IMG/VR virus record: IMGVR_UViG_3300017760_000130
Span: 1-21,325 of that record
Source: a virus
DNA length: 21,325 nt
Reading direction: 5' to 3' (one strand)
This document shows positions 5,124-20,414 of the stretch, one piece after another (position 1 is the stretch's first letter; every line of letters starts with the position of its first letter). The notes under the pieces were generated by a model. It saw nothing but the letters and a program-made list of their open reading frames with translations, ran no database searches and was not told where the DNA came from. A program made the translations under genes and the position numbers.

Positions 5124-5699
5124 ATGTTAGACTTACTTGAAAGAATACAAGGTGAAACTCCGTTAGAAACAGAGAAACGAAGTCAGGAAAGTTTAGAGTG
5201 GTTTAAAGGAAGACTTAGAAAGATAAGACAACCTGTAAATAAACTAATTACAGACGATGATTTTCCTGTTGTTAGCAAACCAGAGTTGGGTAGAATGTAT
5301 ATGTATCGTTATGATGCAAAATACCAAGATGTTCTGCCTTATTGGGATAAATTCCCACTCACTATTGTGTTTGAGTTTCTTACAGACGGTTTTATGGGCA
5401 TAAATTTACATTACATTGCACCAAGGTATAGAACACCATTACTTTTAAGTCTCTATGAGATAGCAACTGATAATGAACAAGATGAAGAACGAAGAGTTAT
5501 GTTATCATATCAGTTAATTAAGACTGTTTCTGGTCTTAGATATGCAAAACCATGTGTAAAGAGATATCTTTATGCACATATCGATTCTAGGATAGCAGAA
5601 GTGCCTATGGATTATTGGGATATGATGGTGATGTTACCGTCACAACAATTTAATGTTAATGCAAACAAAGTATATGCAGATAGTAGAGAGAAATTTTAA
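5124..5699 (+). CDS. conserved T4-like phage protein, probably structural or assembly
   Basis: 191 aa, no signal peptide or membrane segment. The central block MYMYRYDAKYQDVLPYWDKF, then PLTIVFEF, GFMGINLHYIAPRYRTPLL, is one I recognise as conserved among marine T4-like phages, but I cannot attach a T4 gene number with confidence. T4 gene 2 (DNA end protector) neighbours gene 4, as this gene does, but that is position only. It overlaps the next gene through TAATG, so translation is coupled to the gp54-like gene. Its own late promoter lies just upstream. Confidence 0.7.
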   Translation: MLDLLERIQGETPLETEKRSQESLEWFKGRLRKIRQPVNKLITDDDFPVVSKPELGRMYMYRYDAKYQDVLPYWDKFPLTIVFEFLTDGFMGINLHYIAPRYRTPLLLSLYEIATDNEQDEERRVMLSYQLIKTVSGLRYAKPCVKRYLYAHIDSRIAEVPMDYWDMMVMLPSQQFNVNANKVYADSREKF

Positions 5700-6385
5700 T
5701 GGATATTAATAAACTAAAATCAAATTTCGATGCAGGTGCATTGAATAACTATTTCCAAGTCAACATGTTTTGTCCTCAATTGGGATTCAACATAGAAGGT
5801 GTTAGATGTGAAGCAACAAGTCTTCCAGGAAGAAGTTTAGCAACCAAAGATTTTTATACAACAGGAACAAATACAAAAAAAGTCACACAGGTTAACAACA
5901 CAAATGAAGTTGATTTTACCTTTATATGTGATTCAAGTTTCTTTGATAGATACATTATCGAAGCATGGCAATCGTCTATCTTTACTGCAGAAGATGGAAA
6001 TAGTATTAAACCAATCTTAATGTATCCAAAAGATTATTATGGAACAATAGAAATAGAACAATTTAGAAGAGACTCATCAATGGCACTAAAATATAAATTT
6101 TATGATGCATTTCCAGTCTCTTACGAACCAATGTCACTCTCAATGGGTGAAAGTGCATTGTTAAAATTTACATGCAAATTTGCATTTAAAACATTTGATA
6201 CTGAATATGGGGATGCACCTCAACTTTCGGTACTAAATAAAGGAAGACGATATCTTGATTTAGCAAGAGAGAGTCTTACAGTTGCAAGTAGGTTTAGTAG
6301 TAAATCTAAAGACATGTTAGGGAAACTTAACAAATTAGATTCTGCTGGGTCAAGACTTAGCAATTTACTAGGTGGTGGCATCTAG
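5699..6385 (+). CDS. 54: tail-tube-fold protein, gp54-like
   Basis: 228 aa. It contains the pattern typical of T4-like tube proteins: a start such as NYFQVNMFCPQLGF, then RCEATSLPGRSLATKDFYTT, later FTFICDSSFFDRYIIEAWQS, YYGTIEIEQFRRD, and YKFYDAFPVSYEPMSLSM. It is longer than T4 gp19 (163 aa) and shorter than gp54 (320 aa). Two roles are possible: the baseplate tube initiator gp54, or a tail-tube protein. The gp54 role is favoured because the gene lies among baseplate genes near gp48. The C-terminal tail is Ser/Gly/Leu-rich. The start overlaps the previous stop (TAATG). Confidence 0.65.
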   Translation: MDINKLKSNFDAGALNNYFQVNMFCPQLGFNIEGVRCEATSLPGRSLATKDFYTTGTNTKKVTQVNNTNEVDFTFICDSSFFDRYIIEAWQSSIFTAEDGNSIKPILMYPKDYYGTIEIEQFRRDSSMALKYKFYDAFPVSYEPMSLSMGESALLKFTCKFAFKTFDTEYGDAPQLSVLNKGRRYLDLARESLTVASRFSSKSKDMLGKLNKLDSAGSRLSNLLGGGI

Positions 6386-6407: not shown

Positions 6408-7112
6408 ATGGGATTACCAATCCAATCAGCACCGACATATAAAACGGTGCTACCAAGTGATGGTCGTGAAGTAAAGTTTCGACCTTTTCTTGTTAAAGAA
6501 CAAAAGGTTTTACTTTTAGCTAAAGAGAGTGAGGATAAAAAAGAATCACTCGAAGCAGTAAAGACGATGATTAATAATGTGACCTTTGGGGAGATTAATG
6601 CAAATGAACTTGCAACAATCGACTTAGAATGGTTGTTTATTAAGATTCGTGCTGTATCAGTTGGAGAAACTACCACTGTTAAAATGAAATGTCAAGAAGA
6701 TGACTGCTCAGGAACAGGAGATGTTTCAATCAATTTTGATGATGTTGAAGTTAAAGGTGAACTGATTGATAATACTGTGATGATTAGTGATGATGTTGGT
6801 GTAGTTCTAAGATTACTTAGAGTACAAGACACTACTGAAATAGAAGATAGTGTGGATGAAAATGAATCCATATTTAAACTTCTGAATAAGTCAATAGATA
6901 GAATCTTTGATGCAGAAAGTGTTTATGAAAGAAATGATATATCTGACGAAGATGTTGATGAGTTCATTGAGAACTTAACAATAGGTCAGGTTGAAAAGTT
7001 AACAGATTTCTTTCAAAGTGCTCCAAGACTGGAACATGATGTTGAGTTCAAATGTGAAGTTTGTAATTCTCAACAGACGAGAAAACTACAGGGATTAGCA
7101 AATTTTTTCTAA
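6408..7112 (+). CDS. 26: gp26-like baseplate hub/assembly protein
   Basis: 234 aa. The N-terminus (YKTVLPSDGREVKFRPFLVK, then EQKVLLLAKES) is the hallmark of the T4 baseplate hub family that includes gp26. Two cysteine pairs, C95/C100 and C216/C219 (FKCEVCNS), could together bind zinc, a feature not usually described for T4 gp26. TGGAG precedes the start. The last codons, GCA AAT TTT TTC TAA, contain a slippery heptamer, and the -1 frame stays open past the stop (see 7100-7106). The gene lies upstream of the tape measure, the classical place of tail assembly chaperones. Confidence 0.8.
   Translation: MGLPIQSAPTYKTVLPSDGREVKFRPFLVKEQKVLLLAKESEDKKESLEAVKTMINNVTFGEINANELATIDLEWLFIKIRAVSVGETTTVKMKCQEDDCSGTGDVSINFDDVEVKGELIDNTVMISDDVGVVLRLLRVQDTTEIEDSVDENESIFKLLNKSIDRIFDAESVYERNDISDEDVDEFIENLTIGQVEKLTDFFQSAPRLEHDVEFKCEVCNSQQTRKLQGLANFF
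7100..7106 (+). promoter_or_regulatory. putative -1 ribosomal frameshift site (A AAT TTT)
   Basis: In the gp26 frame the codons are GCA-AAT-TTT-TTC-TAA. This gives a textbook X XXY YYZ heptamer, A AAT TTT, two codons before the stop. After a -1 slip the ribosome reads TTT CTA ATC GCC and continues for 62 codons into the gp51-like frame. Neither candidate start in that frame has a good ribosome site. Predicted fusion is about 295 aa. Confidence 0.55.
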
Positions 7113-7294
7113 TCGCCCTTTCTCACGAGTCGGTGTTTAATTATTATAACACCAACTTTCAGATGATGCAACATCACAATTATTCATTAACAGAATTAGA
7201 GGATATGATGCCGTGGGAAAGGGAGATTTATGTTAATCTTCTCTTAAACTACTTAGAACAAGAAAAGCAGAGACAACAGAATAGTAAACAATAA
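7106..7294 (+). CDS. 51: gp51-like frame, probable frameshift extension of gp26
   Basis: An open frame, -1 relative to gp26, of 62 codons ending with TAA at 7292-7294. It reads FLIALSHESVFNYYNTNFQ, then a block beginning MMQHHNYSLTELEDMMPWER. The PWEREIYVNLLLNYLEQEKQ helix is the recognisable part of short gp51-like proteins in marine T4-like phages. The first ATG is 7163, which would give only 43 aa, lacks a ribosome site and would cut off the conserved-looking SHESVF segment. A GTG at 7133 is the other candidate. I favour expression as a gp26 fusion. T4 gp51 itself is far longer (about 249 aa). Confidence 0.6.
   Translation, partial: FLIALSHESVFNYYNTNFQMMQHHNYSLTELEDMMPWEREIYVNLLLNYLEQEKQRQQNSKQ
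7132..7153 (+). other. small hairpin downstream of the slippery site
   Basis: GGTGTT (7132-7137) pairs with AACACC (7148-7153) around a 10-nt AT loop. It begins 25 nt after the slippery heptamer, further than the usual 5-9 nt of a frameshift stimulator, so its role is uncertain. Confidence 0.3.
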
Positions 7295-7337: not shown

Positions 7338-7718
7338 ATGGCAGAAGAAACTAAAGACATGTCAAGCAATGAGGTGGAGATTGATTTAGATAAGTACATG
7401 GCACTTATCGAAAAACTTGACGAACAGGAAGATGTAATCCGAGAAATGAAAGAAGATGCCATTAAGGCAAAACGAGGATTAGAACCACCAAAAAGAAAGT
7501 TTATAGACTTGTTCTTAGACGACAACGATTTGAATGAGAAAGCAATCATCGGATTTATCTCATTCTTTTTAATGATGTGTTTCGGTATAACAGACCTAGT
7601 CACAGCACTAGTTTGGGATATAGACTTAAAAGTCTCTGAAACAATCTATACATCATTTGTAGTAGTCACACTAGGTGCATTTGGAATATCCGAAGCAGGA
7701 AAAGCATTCGGTAAATAA
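7338..7718 (+). CDS. two-TM membrane protein upstream of the tape measure
   Basis: 126 aa. The N-terminal ~60 residues are acidic and helical (possible coiled coil). Two hydrophobic segments follow: roughly 69-92 (AIIGFISFFLMMCFGITDL) and 103-120 (TIYTSFVVVTLGAFGI), ending SEAGKAFGK. The layout would suit a holin-like protein. In T4 the membrane-associated hub protein gp28 is encoded just before the tape measure gene 29, so a gp28 counterpart is the other idea. No sequence motif decides between them. TGGAG lies about 10 nt before the ATG. Confidence 0.65.
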   Translation: MAEETKDMSSNEVEIDLDKYMALIEKLDEQEDVIREMKEDAIKAKRGLEPPKRKFIDLFLDDNDLNEKAIIGFISFFLMMCFGITDLVTALVWDIDLKVSETIYTSFVVVTLGAFGISEAGKAFGK

Positions 7719-7729
7719 AGGAAAATTTA

Positions 7730-9859
7730 ATGGCAGACGAACTAGATAAAAGAGTTAGTGAACTAGACAAACAACTTACCAAGGCTGCAAAAACCTTAGA
7801 AGATAATGTTAAACTCGAAGGAGAAAGAAACAGAGCAATTGCATCTTCTACTAGTGAACAGAAAGAATCATTTAAAAATTTAATTAATGATTTAAAAGAG
7901 GTTAGACCTGAAACTGCTAAAATCGTTGCAGATTTTAAAAGTGCTGGTGATGATACACTCAAAGGTGCTCTCTTAAATAAGAAAATGTCCGTTGCCATTG
8001 AAGCAGCAACCATTGCTACAACAGAAGGAATGGATGCTTTAACTGAAGAACAGTCAAAGGCACTAAGTCAAATTTTTGGAGATACTACAGAAAAACTATC
8101 TGAAGTTCTAGGACCTATTGCAAAACTTACTGAAGAGATAGCATCAACAGAAGAAGAAATTGCAAGGACAAAAGATTCTATATTTGAATTTGAATCTGCC
8201 ATTGCAAGTACCGAAAAAGATATCGCAGACCTTGTACTCAGAGAAGCAGAGTATAAGAAAGCAATTATTGCCCAAGAAAAACTTATGGCAGAACTTGATG
8301 CGAAGATGTCCGAAGAAGTGCATGATAATAATAAAAGAACTCATGCATTGCAAATAGCGGCAATCCAGGATAAAATTAACGCTGCTGTTGAAGAAAATGC
8401 TTTAGAAAAAGCAAATATAGATTCTATGTCTGCAAACAGACAAGAGTTATTAGAGACTCAACAATCTCAGTTAAGTATTGAAAAAAATATACTAAACAAT
8501 AACGAAATCACTCTACAAGAAAATTCAGATAAACAAGAATCTCTAATGAAACAAGAGACTGCTATCCGTGAAGAAATGTCTGCAAATATGGAACAGGCAA
8601 AGAATGACCAGTTATCAGGTCTTACTGACTTCTCTGACGGATTAAAAGGTCTTACAGGTTTCGACCTTATAGGTCAATTAGATGATGCCGTTAAGATGTT
8701 CAACAATGCACAAAAGGTTATGAGTGGAGTTGCACAAGGTTTCTCTAAAGGTGTTGAGTATATGAAAGGTATCAGTATAGAAGGTATGACTGAGAAATTC
8801 AATAATGTAATGGGTACAGTTCAGAAAGGTTTCAACTTTGCAAAAACAGGTCTTACAAAGATGGCCAAAAGATTCATGGTGACCATGAGTACATTCTTTA
8901 CATCAATGGTAACATTCTTAACACCTGTTATGATTGCAGCGGCAGGATTACTCATGTCAGCGGCACCTTGGATTCTATTAGGTCTTGCAGTAGTAGGAAT
9001 AGTCTTAGCAGGTATGAAACTATATGAAGAGTCTGAAGGATTTAAAGCAGCGATTGATACAGTCATAGGGTATTTTATGGATATCAAAGACTCAATCTTT
9101 AGAATCTTTGGTGGATTCTTTGACTTCTGGAAAGGTCTATTCACAGGAGACTTCGACTTAATGTTCTCTGGTCTTAAAGATGCATTTGGTGGAATATGGG
9201 ATTTAATCTCGGCACCATTCAAAGCAATCGGTGATTTCTTTAAGAATGTATTTGGTATTGATATCATGGCAAAACTAAAACAAATGGCAAAAGCAATATT
9301 GCCAGGTGTAGTTTACAGAGCATTATTCGATGATGATGTACCTGAAATGAATGAGAAAATGAAAGAGAAAGGATTAGATGCTGCTGAAGAGTCTGGTCTA
9401 TATGAGAAGAAGGGAATTGGTAGAGCATCAGTTGTTAATCCTGATATGATTATCACTGCACCTAATAATCAGTTGAACGCAATTCTTGCTGATGATGATA
9501 TTGGTGATGAAACTAAAGAGTTAATTATAAAAGAACTAGAGGCAAGAAAATCAATTATTGCAAGTTATAATGAGGCAAAAACTGCCTTAGATGCTGGTCA
9601 AACCAATCTAGCAGATGGTTCTGATGCAGAGACAATTATGGAATTTGCAGAAGAAGACATGGCATTGAGACGAGGTGCTCAAATCGATACTGCAACACAA
9701 GAGGCAAGACCAGATATTAATGCCGCGGCAAATGCAGTTGCTTCAGTTGTCCAACAGAATAATAATAACTCACAATCAACAACCAATGTGATGAACACTA
9801 AAGATTCTGCAAGGGATGAGAACGATAGATATTATGACGATATTATGGTTGGTGTCTAA
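7730..9859 (+). CDS. 29: tail tape-measure protein (gp29 counterpart)
   Basis: 709 aa, the longest protein in the window. Residues 1-300 are charged and strongly helical with heptad-like Glu/Lys/Leu/Ile repeats (long coiled coil). Residues ~380-435 are very hydrophobic (TFLTPVMIAAAGLLMSAAPW, then ILLGLAVVGIVLAG). A second amphipathic stretch follows (~455-540, with FGGIWDLISAPFKAIGDFF). Such coil-plus-hydrophobic layout and length fit a tape-measure protein, which sets tail length inside the tube. T4 gp29 has 590 aa. It follows the gp26/gp51 and two-TM genes. Its last 17 nt overlap the 3' end of the opposite-strand gene. Confidence 0.8.
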   Translation: MADELDKRVSELDKQLTKAAKTLEDNVKLEGERNRAIASSTSEQKESFKNLINDLKEVRPETAKIVADFKSAGDDTLKGALLNKKMSVAIEAATIATTEGMDALTEEQSKALSQIFGDTTEKLSEVLGPIAKLTEEIASTEEEIARTKDSIFEFESAIASTEKDIADLVLREAEYKKAIIAQEKLMAELDAKMSEEVHDNNKRTHALQIAAIQDKINAAVEENALEKANIDSMSANRQELLETQQSQLSIEKNILNNNEITLQENSDKQESLMKQETAIREEMSANMEQAKNDQLSGLTDFSDGLKGLTGFDLIGQLDDAVKMFNNAQKVMSGVAQGFSKGVEYMKGISIEGMTEKFNNVMGTVQKGFNFAKTGLTKMAKRFMVTMSTFFTSMVTFLTPVMIAAAGLLMSAAPWILLGLAVVGIVLAGMKLYEESEGFKAAIDTVIGYFMDIKDSIFRIFGGFFDFWKGLFTGDFDLMFSGLKDAFGGIWDLISAPFKAIGDFFKNVFGIDIMAKLKQMAKAILPGVVYRALFDDDVPEMNEKMKEKGLDAAEESGLYEKKGIGRASVVNPDMIITAPNNQLNAILADDDIGDETKELIIKELEARKSIIASYNEAKTALDAGQTNLADGSDAETIMEFAEEDMALRRGAQIDTATQEARPDINAAANAVASVVQQNNNNSQSTTNVMNTKDSARDENDRYYDDIMVGV

Positions 9860-15664: not shown

Positions 15665-16198
15665 TTAATAGTTCCTCGAAAATTTAATATCACCTTTATA
15701 ATTTCTTTGATAATGTATTGCACCAACCAAAAACCCAACAGGAAATCCGTGAGTATTACCAGTGCCTAAATTAATAATTTCTTTTACATCACCATATTTC
15801 ATAACTGCTTGGTCGTTACCTTTTGATTTGAACAATTTAGAAAAAGGCACAAACATCACAACATTGTCTGCAACTTCAAATGCCTTATCTAAAAAATCAT
15901 CAAATATACTGTAAGGTGGATTAGTAATTATCCAATCAACCTTGCCATTGTAATCAAAGAAATCTTTACCTTCTGATATTTCACACCAATCAACATCATC
16001 ATCTTCTACAGATAAACCTTTGGTTGCAAGATTATATTCTTGCATTGCTGTATAGAAGGCACTATCACCACGACAAGGTTCTAACATTTTGCCTTGTGGT
16101 TCGAAGTGTTCAACTATCCATTTTGCTGTATGATATGGTGTCATGACAACATCTTGTTTTGTTGATTGACCTGTCTTATTAGAATTAGTTGGTTTCAT
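15665..16198 (-). CDS. N6-adenine DNA methyltransferase-like protein
   Basis: 177 aa. Contains MLEPCRGDSAFYTAM (~38-52, the S-adenosylmethionine pocket) and WIITNPPYSIFDDFLDKAFE with NPPY at 93-96, the catalytic motif of N6-adenine and related amino methyltransferases. Near the end is GFPVGFLVGAIHYQRN. There is no target-recognition domain of the usual size and no restriction gene next to it, so it would be an orphan enzyme, possibly protecting phage DNA. The start overlaps the endolysin stop by 4 nt. Confidence 0.83.
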   Translation of the reverse strand: MKPTNSNKTGQSTKQDVVMTPYHTAKWIVEHFEPQGKMLEPCRGDSAFYTAMQEYNLATKGLSVEDDDVDWCEISEGKDFFDYNGKVDWIITNPPYSIFDDFLDKAFEVADNVVMFVPFSKLFKSKGNDQAVMKYGDVKEIINLGTGNTHGFPVGFLVGAIHYQRNYKGDIKFSRNY

Positions 16199-16710
16199 TT
16201 GTAAAAGATATGGTCGGTAATTTGTACTGTTTCATTCAATGTTTCTGCCCAATAAGGTTCGACCATAATTGAATGATAGTGTGTTGCACCCTCTGTAATA
16301 TCTGGATACTTGCCCATAATTACATCTTGTGCAATGAGATACGATTCAAAGAATGTATCAGTGTCTAAAGGTTCATCTGACTTACCATCACAGAACCAAC
16401 TGAACTGACATTGATTCCTAATTGGAACTAAATTGCCTTTCCAGTTTTCTCTATACTTTGCATCGTATACAACACCACAAATATCTTTTGGATATGCAGA
16501 ATGTTCCATACGATTGAATACAACTTGTGCAACTGCAACTTTACCTGCAAGTGGTTGATTACCTGACTCGAAGTAAATGTTTTTTGCAAGACAAACTGTC
16601 TCACCGTTTTCGTCTGACGCATGAACAAGACTCGGTAATAACATGATAAACATCAGTAATGCACCGAATCCCATGCCGACTAAAAATGCTCTATAAGATT
16701 CACTCATCAT
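16195..16710 (-). CDS. SleB-like cell wall hydrolase (endolysin)
   Basis: 171 aa. The N-terminus has a hydrophobic segment (~8-29, FLVGMGFGALLMFIMLLPSL) followed by VHASDE, a signal or signal-anchor sequence. The catalytic domain shows CLAKNIYFESGNQPLAGKVA, then VAQVVFNRM, YPKDICGVVYD, CQFSWFCDG, and GATHYH, the pattern of the SleB/cell-wall hydrolase family with the presumed catalytic Glu in NIYFES. A lysis role with Sec export is likely. A 36-aa membrane peptide gene overlaps its start. Confidence 0.85.
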   Translation of the reverse strand: MMSESYRAFLVGMGFGALLMFIMLLPSLVHASDENGETVCLAKNIYFESGNQPLAGKVAVAQVVFNRMEHSAYPKDICGVVYDAKYRENWKGNLVPIRNQCQFSWFCDGKSDEPLDTDTFFESYLIAQDVIMGKYPDITEGATHYHSIMVEPYWAETLNETVQITDHIFYK

Positions 16711-18922: not shown

Positions 18923-19504
18923 TTATTTAGTAAATCTTTCCATGTCCCTTAGAGTTTCTTTATCACTTTGTACTGACTGGTAGTTTGCATGTGCCTGTAG
19001 GGTTACATCTGCAATCTCGTAATCTGGATAAGATGTAATCAGTTTGTAAATCAGACCTGCAACATCTTGGTGTTTGACACTAGGTAAACTTTCGTCATTA
19101 AGAAGACCAAGATTAAGTGTGGTCATTTTATATCTCTTATTGGAATTGTATTGTAGATTGTTTGCAAGGTGATTGAGTTGTGCTTTCTCACTTGCATACA
19201 TATAACCTTTTGATATGTTTGGTTGACTTGCACGACTGGAGATATTGATAATGTATTTTGTCTTCTCACCTTCCCACGCTTCATGTGCAATGGATAGAAT
19301 CTTTGCTTGGTCTTCATGTGCAAGATTGATTAGAACATCAGCAGGTTCATAACCACCGAATACCCAACAGTTTCTTCCATTCATTGTTATGTCTTCACAT
19401 CGAATCGGGTCTACTCTAAAGGTGTTCCCTAAATGTGGTGTTGCTTCTAGTGTGTCTTTAATTATCTTTGCAAGACCACTACTTCCTGTTATTGCTATTC
19501 TCAT
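18923..19504 (-). CDS. SDR/NAD(P)-dependent epimerase-like protein
   Basis: 193 aa, shorter than typical SDR proteins (about 250). The N-terminus MRIAITGSSGLAKIIKDTL has the Rossmann Gly motif. Middle: YIINISSRAS (Ser) and YMYASEKAQLNHL with the YxxxK pair Y103/K107, the catalytic set of short-chain dehydrogenases and nucleotide-sugar epimerases. The C-terminal substrate domain appears reduced. It overlaps the radical SAM gene by 26 nt, which suggests the two act in one pathway. Substrate unknown. Confidence 0.75.
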   Translation of the reverse strand: MRIAITGSSGLAKIIKDTLEATPHLGNTFRVDPIRCEDITMNGRNCWVFGGYEPADVLINLAHEDQAKILSIAHEAWEGEKTKYIINISSRASQPNISKGYMYASEKAQLNHLANNLQYNSNKRYKMTTLNLGLLNDESLPSVKHQDVAGLIYKLITSYPDYEIADVTLQAHANYQSVQSDKETLRDMERFTK

Positions 19505-20414
19505 AATATTCCTTAACTATATCAAATGACGGTTTTCCAAATAGTGAACCGTCTACACTACATTTATTACAAGGTGAATGACTTCTATCACCTTTCATTA
19601 ATCTCTTACGAATCTTTGTCATAGGTTTAGAGAACCATACATCATGTAAAGATTGTTGTAAAAGATTACCTACAACATGTTCTCTTCCCCAATCGTTAGA
19701 ACAGAACAATACATCTCCGTTCCAATCGACAAACATTTTATAGAATGGGTAATGACATGGTTTGCCTTTTAGATTCTCTACAGTATCATCTTCAACACCA
19801 ACCCAATCTACTACACCACTTCTATTATTTAGTATGAGTCCGTGTTTCTCAAAATCTCCCCAATGCATTCTGAACTTATACTTATCTGTCGGTATATCTG
19901 CCCACAATAACATGTCTTCAAACTTATCCATCTGTTCTATACCATCGTACAGATTAATATAGATTAAATCTAAACCTGAATTGTGTATAAGTCCTTCAAG
20001 GTATTTGTGGTCAAGTTTATCTCCGTTAGTATTACACTCTAATGTTGCATAGGGTAATTCTGTTCTGAATATCTTTACTATCTCTATGAAGTCTGGATTA
20101 AGGAGATTCTCTCCGAATCCACTGAATGATATCTTACCTTGAAAGTTATTCTCTCCTAATTCTTCTGCAATGATTAATGCACCCTTAGTTGTAAGGTGTA
20201 GATTTCTATTAGGGAATACTTTAGGGTCATGTCGAGGACAAAACACACAGGTTCTATTACAAAGTTCTGTTGTGTTTATCTCTACAGTGAGAATAGAATC
20301 TAAAGGTTCACTTGTCTTAACTTTATCCCAATGTTTCTTTTCCTGTTCTCTTCTATGTTCCAAGAAATCATATTGGTCTACTGCCTGAATCGGAATGTTT
20401 CTATTATCCGACAT
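19479..20414 (-). CDS. radical SAM/SPASM enzyme
   Basis: 311 aa. The Fe-S motif CNRTCVFC (C52, C56, C59; CxxxCxxC) is followed by SGFGENLLNP (~98-107). The C-terminal SPASM-like domain carries C220, C238, C282 and C285 (FCSNDWG; SPCNKCSVDG), enough for an auxiliary Fe-S cluster. SPASM enzymes modify peptides, sugars or other substrates by radical chemistry. The substrate is not evident. The start overlaps the upstream gene by 11 nt and only a weak ribosome site is seen, so expression is likely coupled. Confidence 0.87.
   Translation of the reverse strand: MSDNRNIPIQAVDQYDFLEHRREQEKKHWDKVKTSEPLDSILTVEINTTELCNRTCVFCPRHDPKVFPNRNLHLTTKGALIIAEELGENNFQGKISFSGFGENLLNPDFIEIVKIFRTELPYATLECNTNGDKLDHKYLEGLIHNSGLDLIYINLYDGIEQMDKFEDMLLWADIPTDKYKFRMHWGDFEKHGLILNNRSGVVDWVGVEDDTVENLKGKPCHYPFYKMFVDWNGDVLFCSNDWGREHVVGNLLQQSLHDVWFSKPMTKIRKRLMKGDRSHSPCNKCSVDGSLFGKPSFDIVKEYYENSNNRK

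Follow-up and report, generated by a model that had tools for sequence, protein, structure and literature searches.

The gp26 locus

The window analyzed here is the whole 21,325-base virus record IMGVR_UViG_3300017760_000130, which carries T4-like tail and head genes. Its minus strand also encodes a radical SAM-like protein (19479-20414) and, at 16195-16710, an endolysin-family cell-wall hydrolase. The following features were located at and around the gp26-like gene:

5699-6385, plus strand: tail tube protein, the upstream context of gp26 (phrog_45 tail tube, E 1.9e-27)
6408-7112, plus strand: gp26-like protein of 234 aa, the putative short form or TAC-N (PF12322, phrog_150, AlphaFold2 model)
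7090-7093, plus strand: SD-like AGGG, probable stimulator, 9 nt 5′ of the slip heptamer (spacing counts, GAG bias)
7100-7106, plus strand: A_AAT_TTT heptamer of the initial annotation, whose use would yield an identical product; not conserved (33/241 loci)
7103-7109, plus strand: putative slip heptamer T_TTT_TTC, the conserved one (247/248 tail-bearing loci)
7110-7112, plus strand: gp26 stop codon TAA, directly 3′ of the heptamer (sequence)
7109-7294, plus strand: gp51-like tail in the -1 frame (TAC-C), 61 codons and a stop (phrog_634, phrog_150 C-terminus, end of T4 gp51)
7127-7158, plus strand: predicted hairpin 3′ of the slip site, possible stimulator (fold of the window, covariation in 26 close relatives)
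7338-7718, plus strand: 126-aa ORF with hydrophobic segments (membrane-type), separating the tail from the presumed tape measure gene
7730-9859, plus strand: presumed tape measure protein of 709 aa (position and character only)

The gp26 ORF ends in GCA AAT TTT TTC TAA. Its product matches PF12322 (T4_baseplate / gp26 family) with E 3.1e-54 and 184.4 bits, against a curated cut-off of 24.5, over profile positions 2-218 of 219, and phrog_150 (baseplate hub) with E 1.2e-59. The initial annotation had described a -1 frame that continues past the gp26 stop and holds a PWEREIYVNLL block, and both are present: the frame is open from 7067 to 7291, with 61 codons (7109-7291) beyond the slip. This tail matches positions 59-116 of 121 of phrog_634, 'baseplate hub assembly catalyst' (gp51), with E 1.8e-26. 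It also matches the C-terminus of the gp26 family phrog_150 (E 1.8e-5), which indicates that some members of that family already carry the tail. The predicted long form would have 234 + 61 = 295 residues whichever of the two overlapping heptamers is used.

The gene pair had been placed upstream of the tape measure gene. Its position fits, although the 126-aa ORF intervenes and the tape measure protein is named by position and character: a PHROG search with it gave nothing at E<=1, and BLASTP against the tape measure protein of Cr30 gave E 0.52 only. The best PHROG match of the 126-aa ORF was no better than E 0.038. In S-PM2, Cr30 and phiM7, the proteins encoded after the chaperone do touch tape measure families.

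Conservation of the tail and of the putative slip heptamer

We collected 270 further loci from viral contigs and annotated phages and located gp26-family ORFs in all 271 sequences by profile search. Out of 273 such ORFs, 248 had a tail match downstream; 16 without a tail match, six truncated ORFs (L040 among them) and three T4-type gp51 genes were dropped. The 16 consist of 12 T4-type gp26 genes and those of Mendera, Vibrio 207E48.1, RC-2014 and Se-J, where a -1 tail missed by the profile is seen by eye; of these four, only Mendera has the heptamer T_TTT_TTN. The loci examined take in S-PM2, Syn19, KVP40, Aeh1, Cr30, pf16, phiM7, a Desulfovibrio phage and Cronobacter phage LPCS28. Included in the 248 are the window, a copy with an identical protein (L001) and second copies of KVP40 and S-PM2, which occur in two collections; clustering at 80% identity lessens this duplication and gave 115 clusters, 114 of them with the heptamer.

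The tail lies in the -1 frame in all 248 tail-bearing loci. An in-frame fusion or a +1 frame was sought among them and found in none (0/248), the three 'same ORF' cases being the T4-type gp51 genes.

Two heptamers overlap before the gp26 stop, A_AAT_TTT and T_TTT_TTC; T_TTT_TTC fits the X_XXY_YYZ pattern in the 0 frame. The initial annotation had chosen the former, which is indeed present and in frame; we rejected it as the slip site since it occurs in only 33 of 241 loci, U_UUU_UUN being conserved instead. An in-frame T_TTT_TTN was found within the last eight codons in 241 of the 248 loci and, with six more sites after the search was widened, in 247, Erwinia phage Bue1 being the sole exception. 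The -1 frame is open across the heptamer in 247/247 of these. Conservation of the heptamer and of an open -1 frame in related genomes, named beforehand as a check on the frameshift, was thus found for T_TTT_TTN (247/248, with the -1 frame in 248/248) and not for A_AAT_TTT. Heptamer types were counted, like A_AAT_TTT, in the 241 loci: 174 sites read TTTTTTC, i.e. have six T's only. Six T's are invariant in an alignment of 21 loci hand-picked for spread (A3).

At the slip site codons, and not residues alone, are conserved. The first Phe codon is TTT in 114/114 cluster representatives compared with 768/1164 elsewhere in the genes, and heptamers were seen in 112/112 cases where about 44 were expected from codon use given the amino acids; both comparisons are uncorrected for kinship, and because the loci are related the counts are not independent events. 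Among the other Phe-Phe pairs within these genes 9 of 107 are slippery, a count likewise uncorrected for kinship.

A need for Phe-Phe in an AT-rich phage might by itself have preserved the T-run, the tail being a decaying remnant. Phe-Phe is kept in 8 of the 12 T4-type gp26 proteins, and F233 is invariant in an alignment of the window, 62 of 75 listed representatives and L101 (A1; left out were the window copy L001, ten loci of the annotated collection, and L108 and L134, which have a late gp26 stop). These same eight T4-type genes, however, write Phe-Phe as TTC TTT, and both the rarity of slippery Phe-Phe pairs elsewhere and the excess of heptamers over expectation speak against this explanation, as does a tail that is protein-like and conserved across families. 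We regard its probability as negligible.

Possible independent start of the tail

The records of S-PM2, KVP40, phiM7, Mendera and Cr30 contain a separate CDS for the tail, which could accordingly be a small protein in its own right, the annotated gp51, with translation beginning by termination-reinitiation or at an internal start codon. The gp26 stop overlaps an ATG in 10 of 114 representatives, so a restart is possible in these. The window, however, has no start at the stop, and its internal candidates, GTG 7133 and ATG 7163, are present as initially annotated with no SD nearby. Neighbouring genes do have SDs, as illustrated by ggagttattaaaATG at 7338. Among the representatives a tail start with an SD-like sequence was found in 3/114, while 78 have no ATG, and 51 no ATG, GTG or TTG, in the stretch from the slip site to the conserved block. 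A separate protein would also leave unexplained both the conserved T_TTT_TTN codons and the fusion of the tail to a gp26-like body in T4 gp51 (see below). We consider this explanation very unlikely, and a -1 frameshift on U_UUU_UUN remains the preferred one.

Annotation of the tail varies among S-PM2, Syn19 and Sf-CH1b (L082, L083, L091): it is called a separate gp51, listed as a truncated hypothetical protein or omitted, and is never joined to gp26.

Candidate stimulatory elements

An AGGG ending 9 nt before the heptamer is present in 57 of 114 representatives, and GAGG at 10 nt in 48. The Glu codon at this SD-like site is GAG in 48 of 72 cases (GAG:GAA 48:24) versus 677 of 2458 (677:1781) elsewhere in the genes, uncorrected for kinship. 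Pairing with the anti-SD averaged -6.45 kcal/mol versus -5.19 in synonymous shuffles (n=114); only 25% of single loci ranked within the best 10% when set against their own shuffles.

Predicted RNA structure, calculated in 60-nt windows, was strongest from +5 nt past the heptamer (mean z -1.82, 39% below -2); eight sampled upstream windows gave z of -0.02 to -0.81. For the hairpin at 7127-7158 we aligned 26 of the 51 distinct sequences with an immediate stop, picked by rank of gp26 similarity (A4). In these close relatives 80.0% of cells were paired as against 57% or less when the model was slid, and one pair is A-U in 13 sequences and G-C in 9. Over all 51 sequences the values were 62.7% and 40-55%. 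The hairpin model was taken from the window's own fold, which favours that structure in both pairing counts. RNAalifold returned no consensus structure for the 21 diverse loci of A3. The usual spacing between heptamer and structure is 5-9 nt, and the hairpin of the window, beginning 17 nt after the heptamer, lies farther away. Overall, the SD-like element is a likely stimulator on the strength of its spacing, codon bias and pairing. The hairpin is a possible one, graded lower because of its window-derived fold, the narrower difference over the 51 sequences and the RNAalifold result.

These elements also bear on whether the long form could arise by transcriptional rather than ribosomal slippage. 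RNA polymerase can slip on runs of T's; typical runs of this kind are longer than six, and 174 of the 241 sites have only six. The SD-like sequence and the downstream structure peak, moreover, point to the ribosome. Slippage of the polymerase thus appears extremely improbable as the source of the long form, and ribosomal slipping is the explanation retained below.

Ackermannviridae and other exceptions

Ackermannviridae (L092, L093, L094, L100, L272-L286, L287-L289) have a gp51-like tail in the -1 frame and lack T_TTT_TTN. Their junctions contain a T_TTY step and often TAATG. In Kuttervirus and relatives the junction reads ATT TTC ATT TAA; in Vibrio Ackermannviridae it is CTT TTT CG[G/C] TAA, CTT TTC AAG TAA or GCT TTC ATG TAA, and several Ackermannviridae have TAATG. 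These phages may use single-tRNA slipping or a restart. A scan with a gp26 of a Vibrio member of the family found no relative.

Two records contain a gp26 gene with 100% and 98.9% identity to a protein of a Salmonella kuttervirus, namely OR844944.1 (13585-14385, Enterococcus phage Efm 3-10) and MN871475.1 (116068-116871, Pseudomonas phage Pa-sanjiao). They are probably mislabelled or mixed records.

T4 genes 26 and 51

Bacteriophage T4 was used as a control. Its genes 26 and 51 are divergently transcribed and have no slip site. PF12322 spans the full length of both gp26 (E 8.8e-64) and gp51 (E 3.9e-52), the two proteins match each other in BLASTP with E 2e-6, and gp51 additionally aligns with phrog_150 as far as position 280 of 282, and with phrog_634. 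From these alignments T4 gp51 is read as a gp26-like body with the tail in frame, and gp26 and gp51 as paralogues. The C-terminus of T4 gp26 is GLKEFFELL. None of the 12 complete T4-type gp26 genes has T_TTT_TTN, and in eight of them Phe-Phe is encoded there by TTC TTT; judging from these genes, a separate gene for the long form goes with loss of the slip site.

T4 thus resembles the window in that both of its proteins are full-length PF12322 members and gp51 ends in the same tail as the -1 frame of the window. It differs in having two genes and no slip site, whereas the window has one gene with a predicted slip. The initial annotation was correct that T4 has separate genes 26 and 51; gp51, however, is not the tail alone but a full gp26 paralogue with the tail attached. 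Separate gp51 genes without a heptamer, which were expected to speak against a frameshift, do occur in T4-type phages, yet they support the fusion because T4 gp51 encodes the long product outright.

The gp51 gene of one T4-like contig (L189, 2501-3246) has an apparently broken frame, perhaps through sequencing error; it was excluded from the gp51 alignment owing to stops in its translation. According to PMC3004832, T4 gp51 is needed for assembly and is not in the final particle.

Fold of gp26 and proposed relationship to tail assembly chaperones

The AlphaFold2 model of the window gp26 had a pLDDT of 93.8, and that of gp51 a pLDDT of 87.5. In VIA-align, residues 1-85 of the gp26 model matched 2ob9, the tail assembly chaperone of HK97, best of all, with Z 7.3 over 84 residues and an rmsd of 4.0. 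A Z under 8 can reflect a common arrangement; the match is made more telling by the gap to the next row (Z 4.8) and by the function of the protein matched. A Foldseek search of the model against the PDB gave nothing at E <= 0.001, the HK97 chaperone having E 3.4 and probability 0.33. Searching PDB sequences with gp26 yielded a single match, with E 0.094, and did not return the HK97 chaperone; the same search with T4 gp51 gave no match.

The chaperones of lambda (gpG/gpGT), P2 and HK97 are made as a short form and a -1 frameshifted long form and are encoded in the tail region. The window would share the short form and the -1 long form, the latter being predicted here, and the HK97 protein is the top structural match of the N-terminal domain of gp26. 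Compared with these chaperones gp26 is longer and has paired Cys motifs, located in the middle and in the C-terminal portion of the protein. By analogy, the arrangement of the window locus would be that of lambda G/GT.

Discussion

We are highly confident that a -1 frameshift joins gp26 to the gp51-like tail in the fashion of tail assembly chaperones, so that one gene of this marine relative of T4 would give a short and a predicted long form. This was the proposal of the initial annotation, and it is the best reading of the data once the slip site is moved to U_UUU_UUN. The sequence basis is the conserved heptamer, the conserved -1 tail, the paralogy of the T4 proteins and the resemblance in fold; the slipping and its rate, what the stimulators do to it, and any action on the tape measure protein we infer. 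In the proposed mechanism gp26 would be the short tail assembly chaperone (TAC-N). A fraction of ribosomes would slip back one base on U_UUU_UUC just before the gp26 stop, probably aided by the upstream SD-like sequence and perhaps by the downstream hairpin. These ribosomes would bypass the stop and append the 61-residue tail (TAC-C), so that the long form (TAC-NC) has 295 aa. Both forms would coat and fold the tape measure protein and help to initiate the tail at the baseplate hub, in the manner of lambda gpG/gpGT. T4 obtains both products from two paralogous genes, 26 for the short form and 51 for the long.

In their Virology article of 2022, Vladimirov, Gautam and Davidson are said to have found frameshifting apparently conserved in several T4-like groups, the T4 group using separate genes. 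PMC10885494, citing Vladimirov, Gautam and Davidson (Virology 2022, 566:9-15), states that some T4-like phages dispense with frameshifting and have a short gene plus a longer, fused one, and PMC12846349, citing the same work, describes slip signals of the polyT type in T4-like TAC-N genes. As these two sources present them, the T4-like TAC-N/TAC-NC of Vladimirov et al. 2022 are the same genes and the same idea as in the window. The kind is therefore known, and the window is a further member. The view that T4-like hub proteins join the chaperone logic of other phages is supported, but on these accounts the link had already been published. Relative to the accounts in PMC10885494 and PMC12846349, the data on stimulators and the heptamer-less Ackermannviridae are additions. 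PMC12846349, on phage Adele, also describes for Vandenendeviridae/Andersonviridae a polyT -1 site that is conserved where TAC-N ends, with the tail open in the -1 frame; this likeness is by description, and the motif (GTTTTT) and the phage lineage are different.

We suggest more tentatively, and short of thinking it probable, that a three-part signal (SD-like sequence, U_UUU_UUN and hairpin) has been kept over very distant phages. Ackermannviridae would have lost the double-slip heptamer; since they keep the -1 tail they would need another route, a U_UUY single-tRNA slip or a TAATG restart. On this view the two genes of T4 would represent a third way to obtain a short and a long form.

The 'gp26' and 'gp51' genes annotated separately in the genomes of marine T4-like phages most likely represent a single frameshifted gene. 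The single-gene marine phages offer a direct test of the ratio of short to long form in a T4-type tail.
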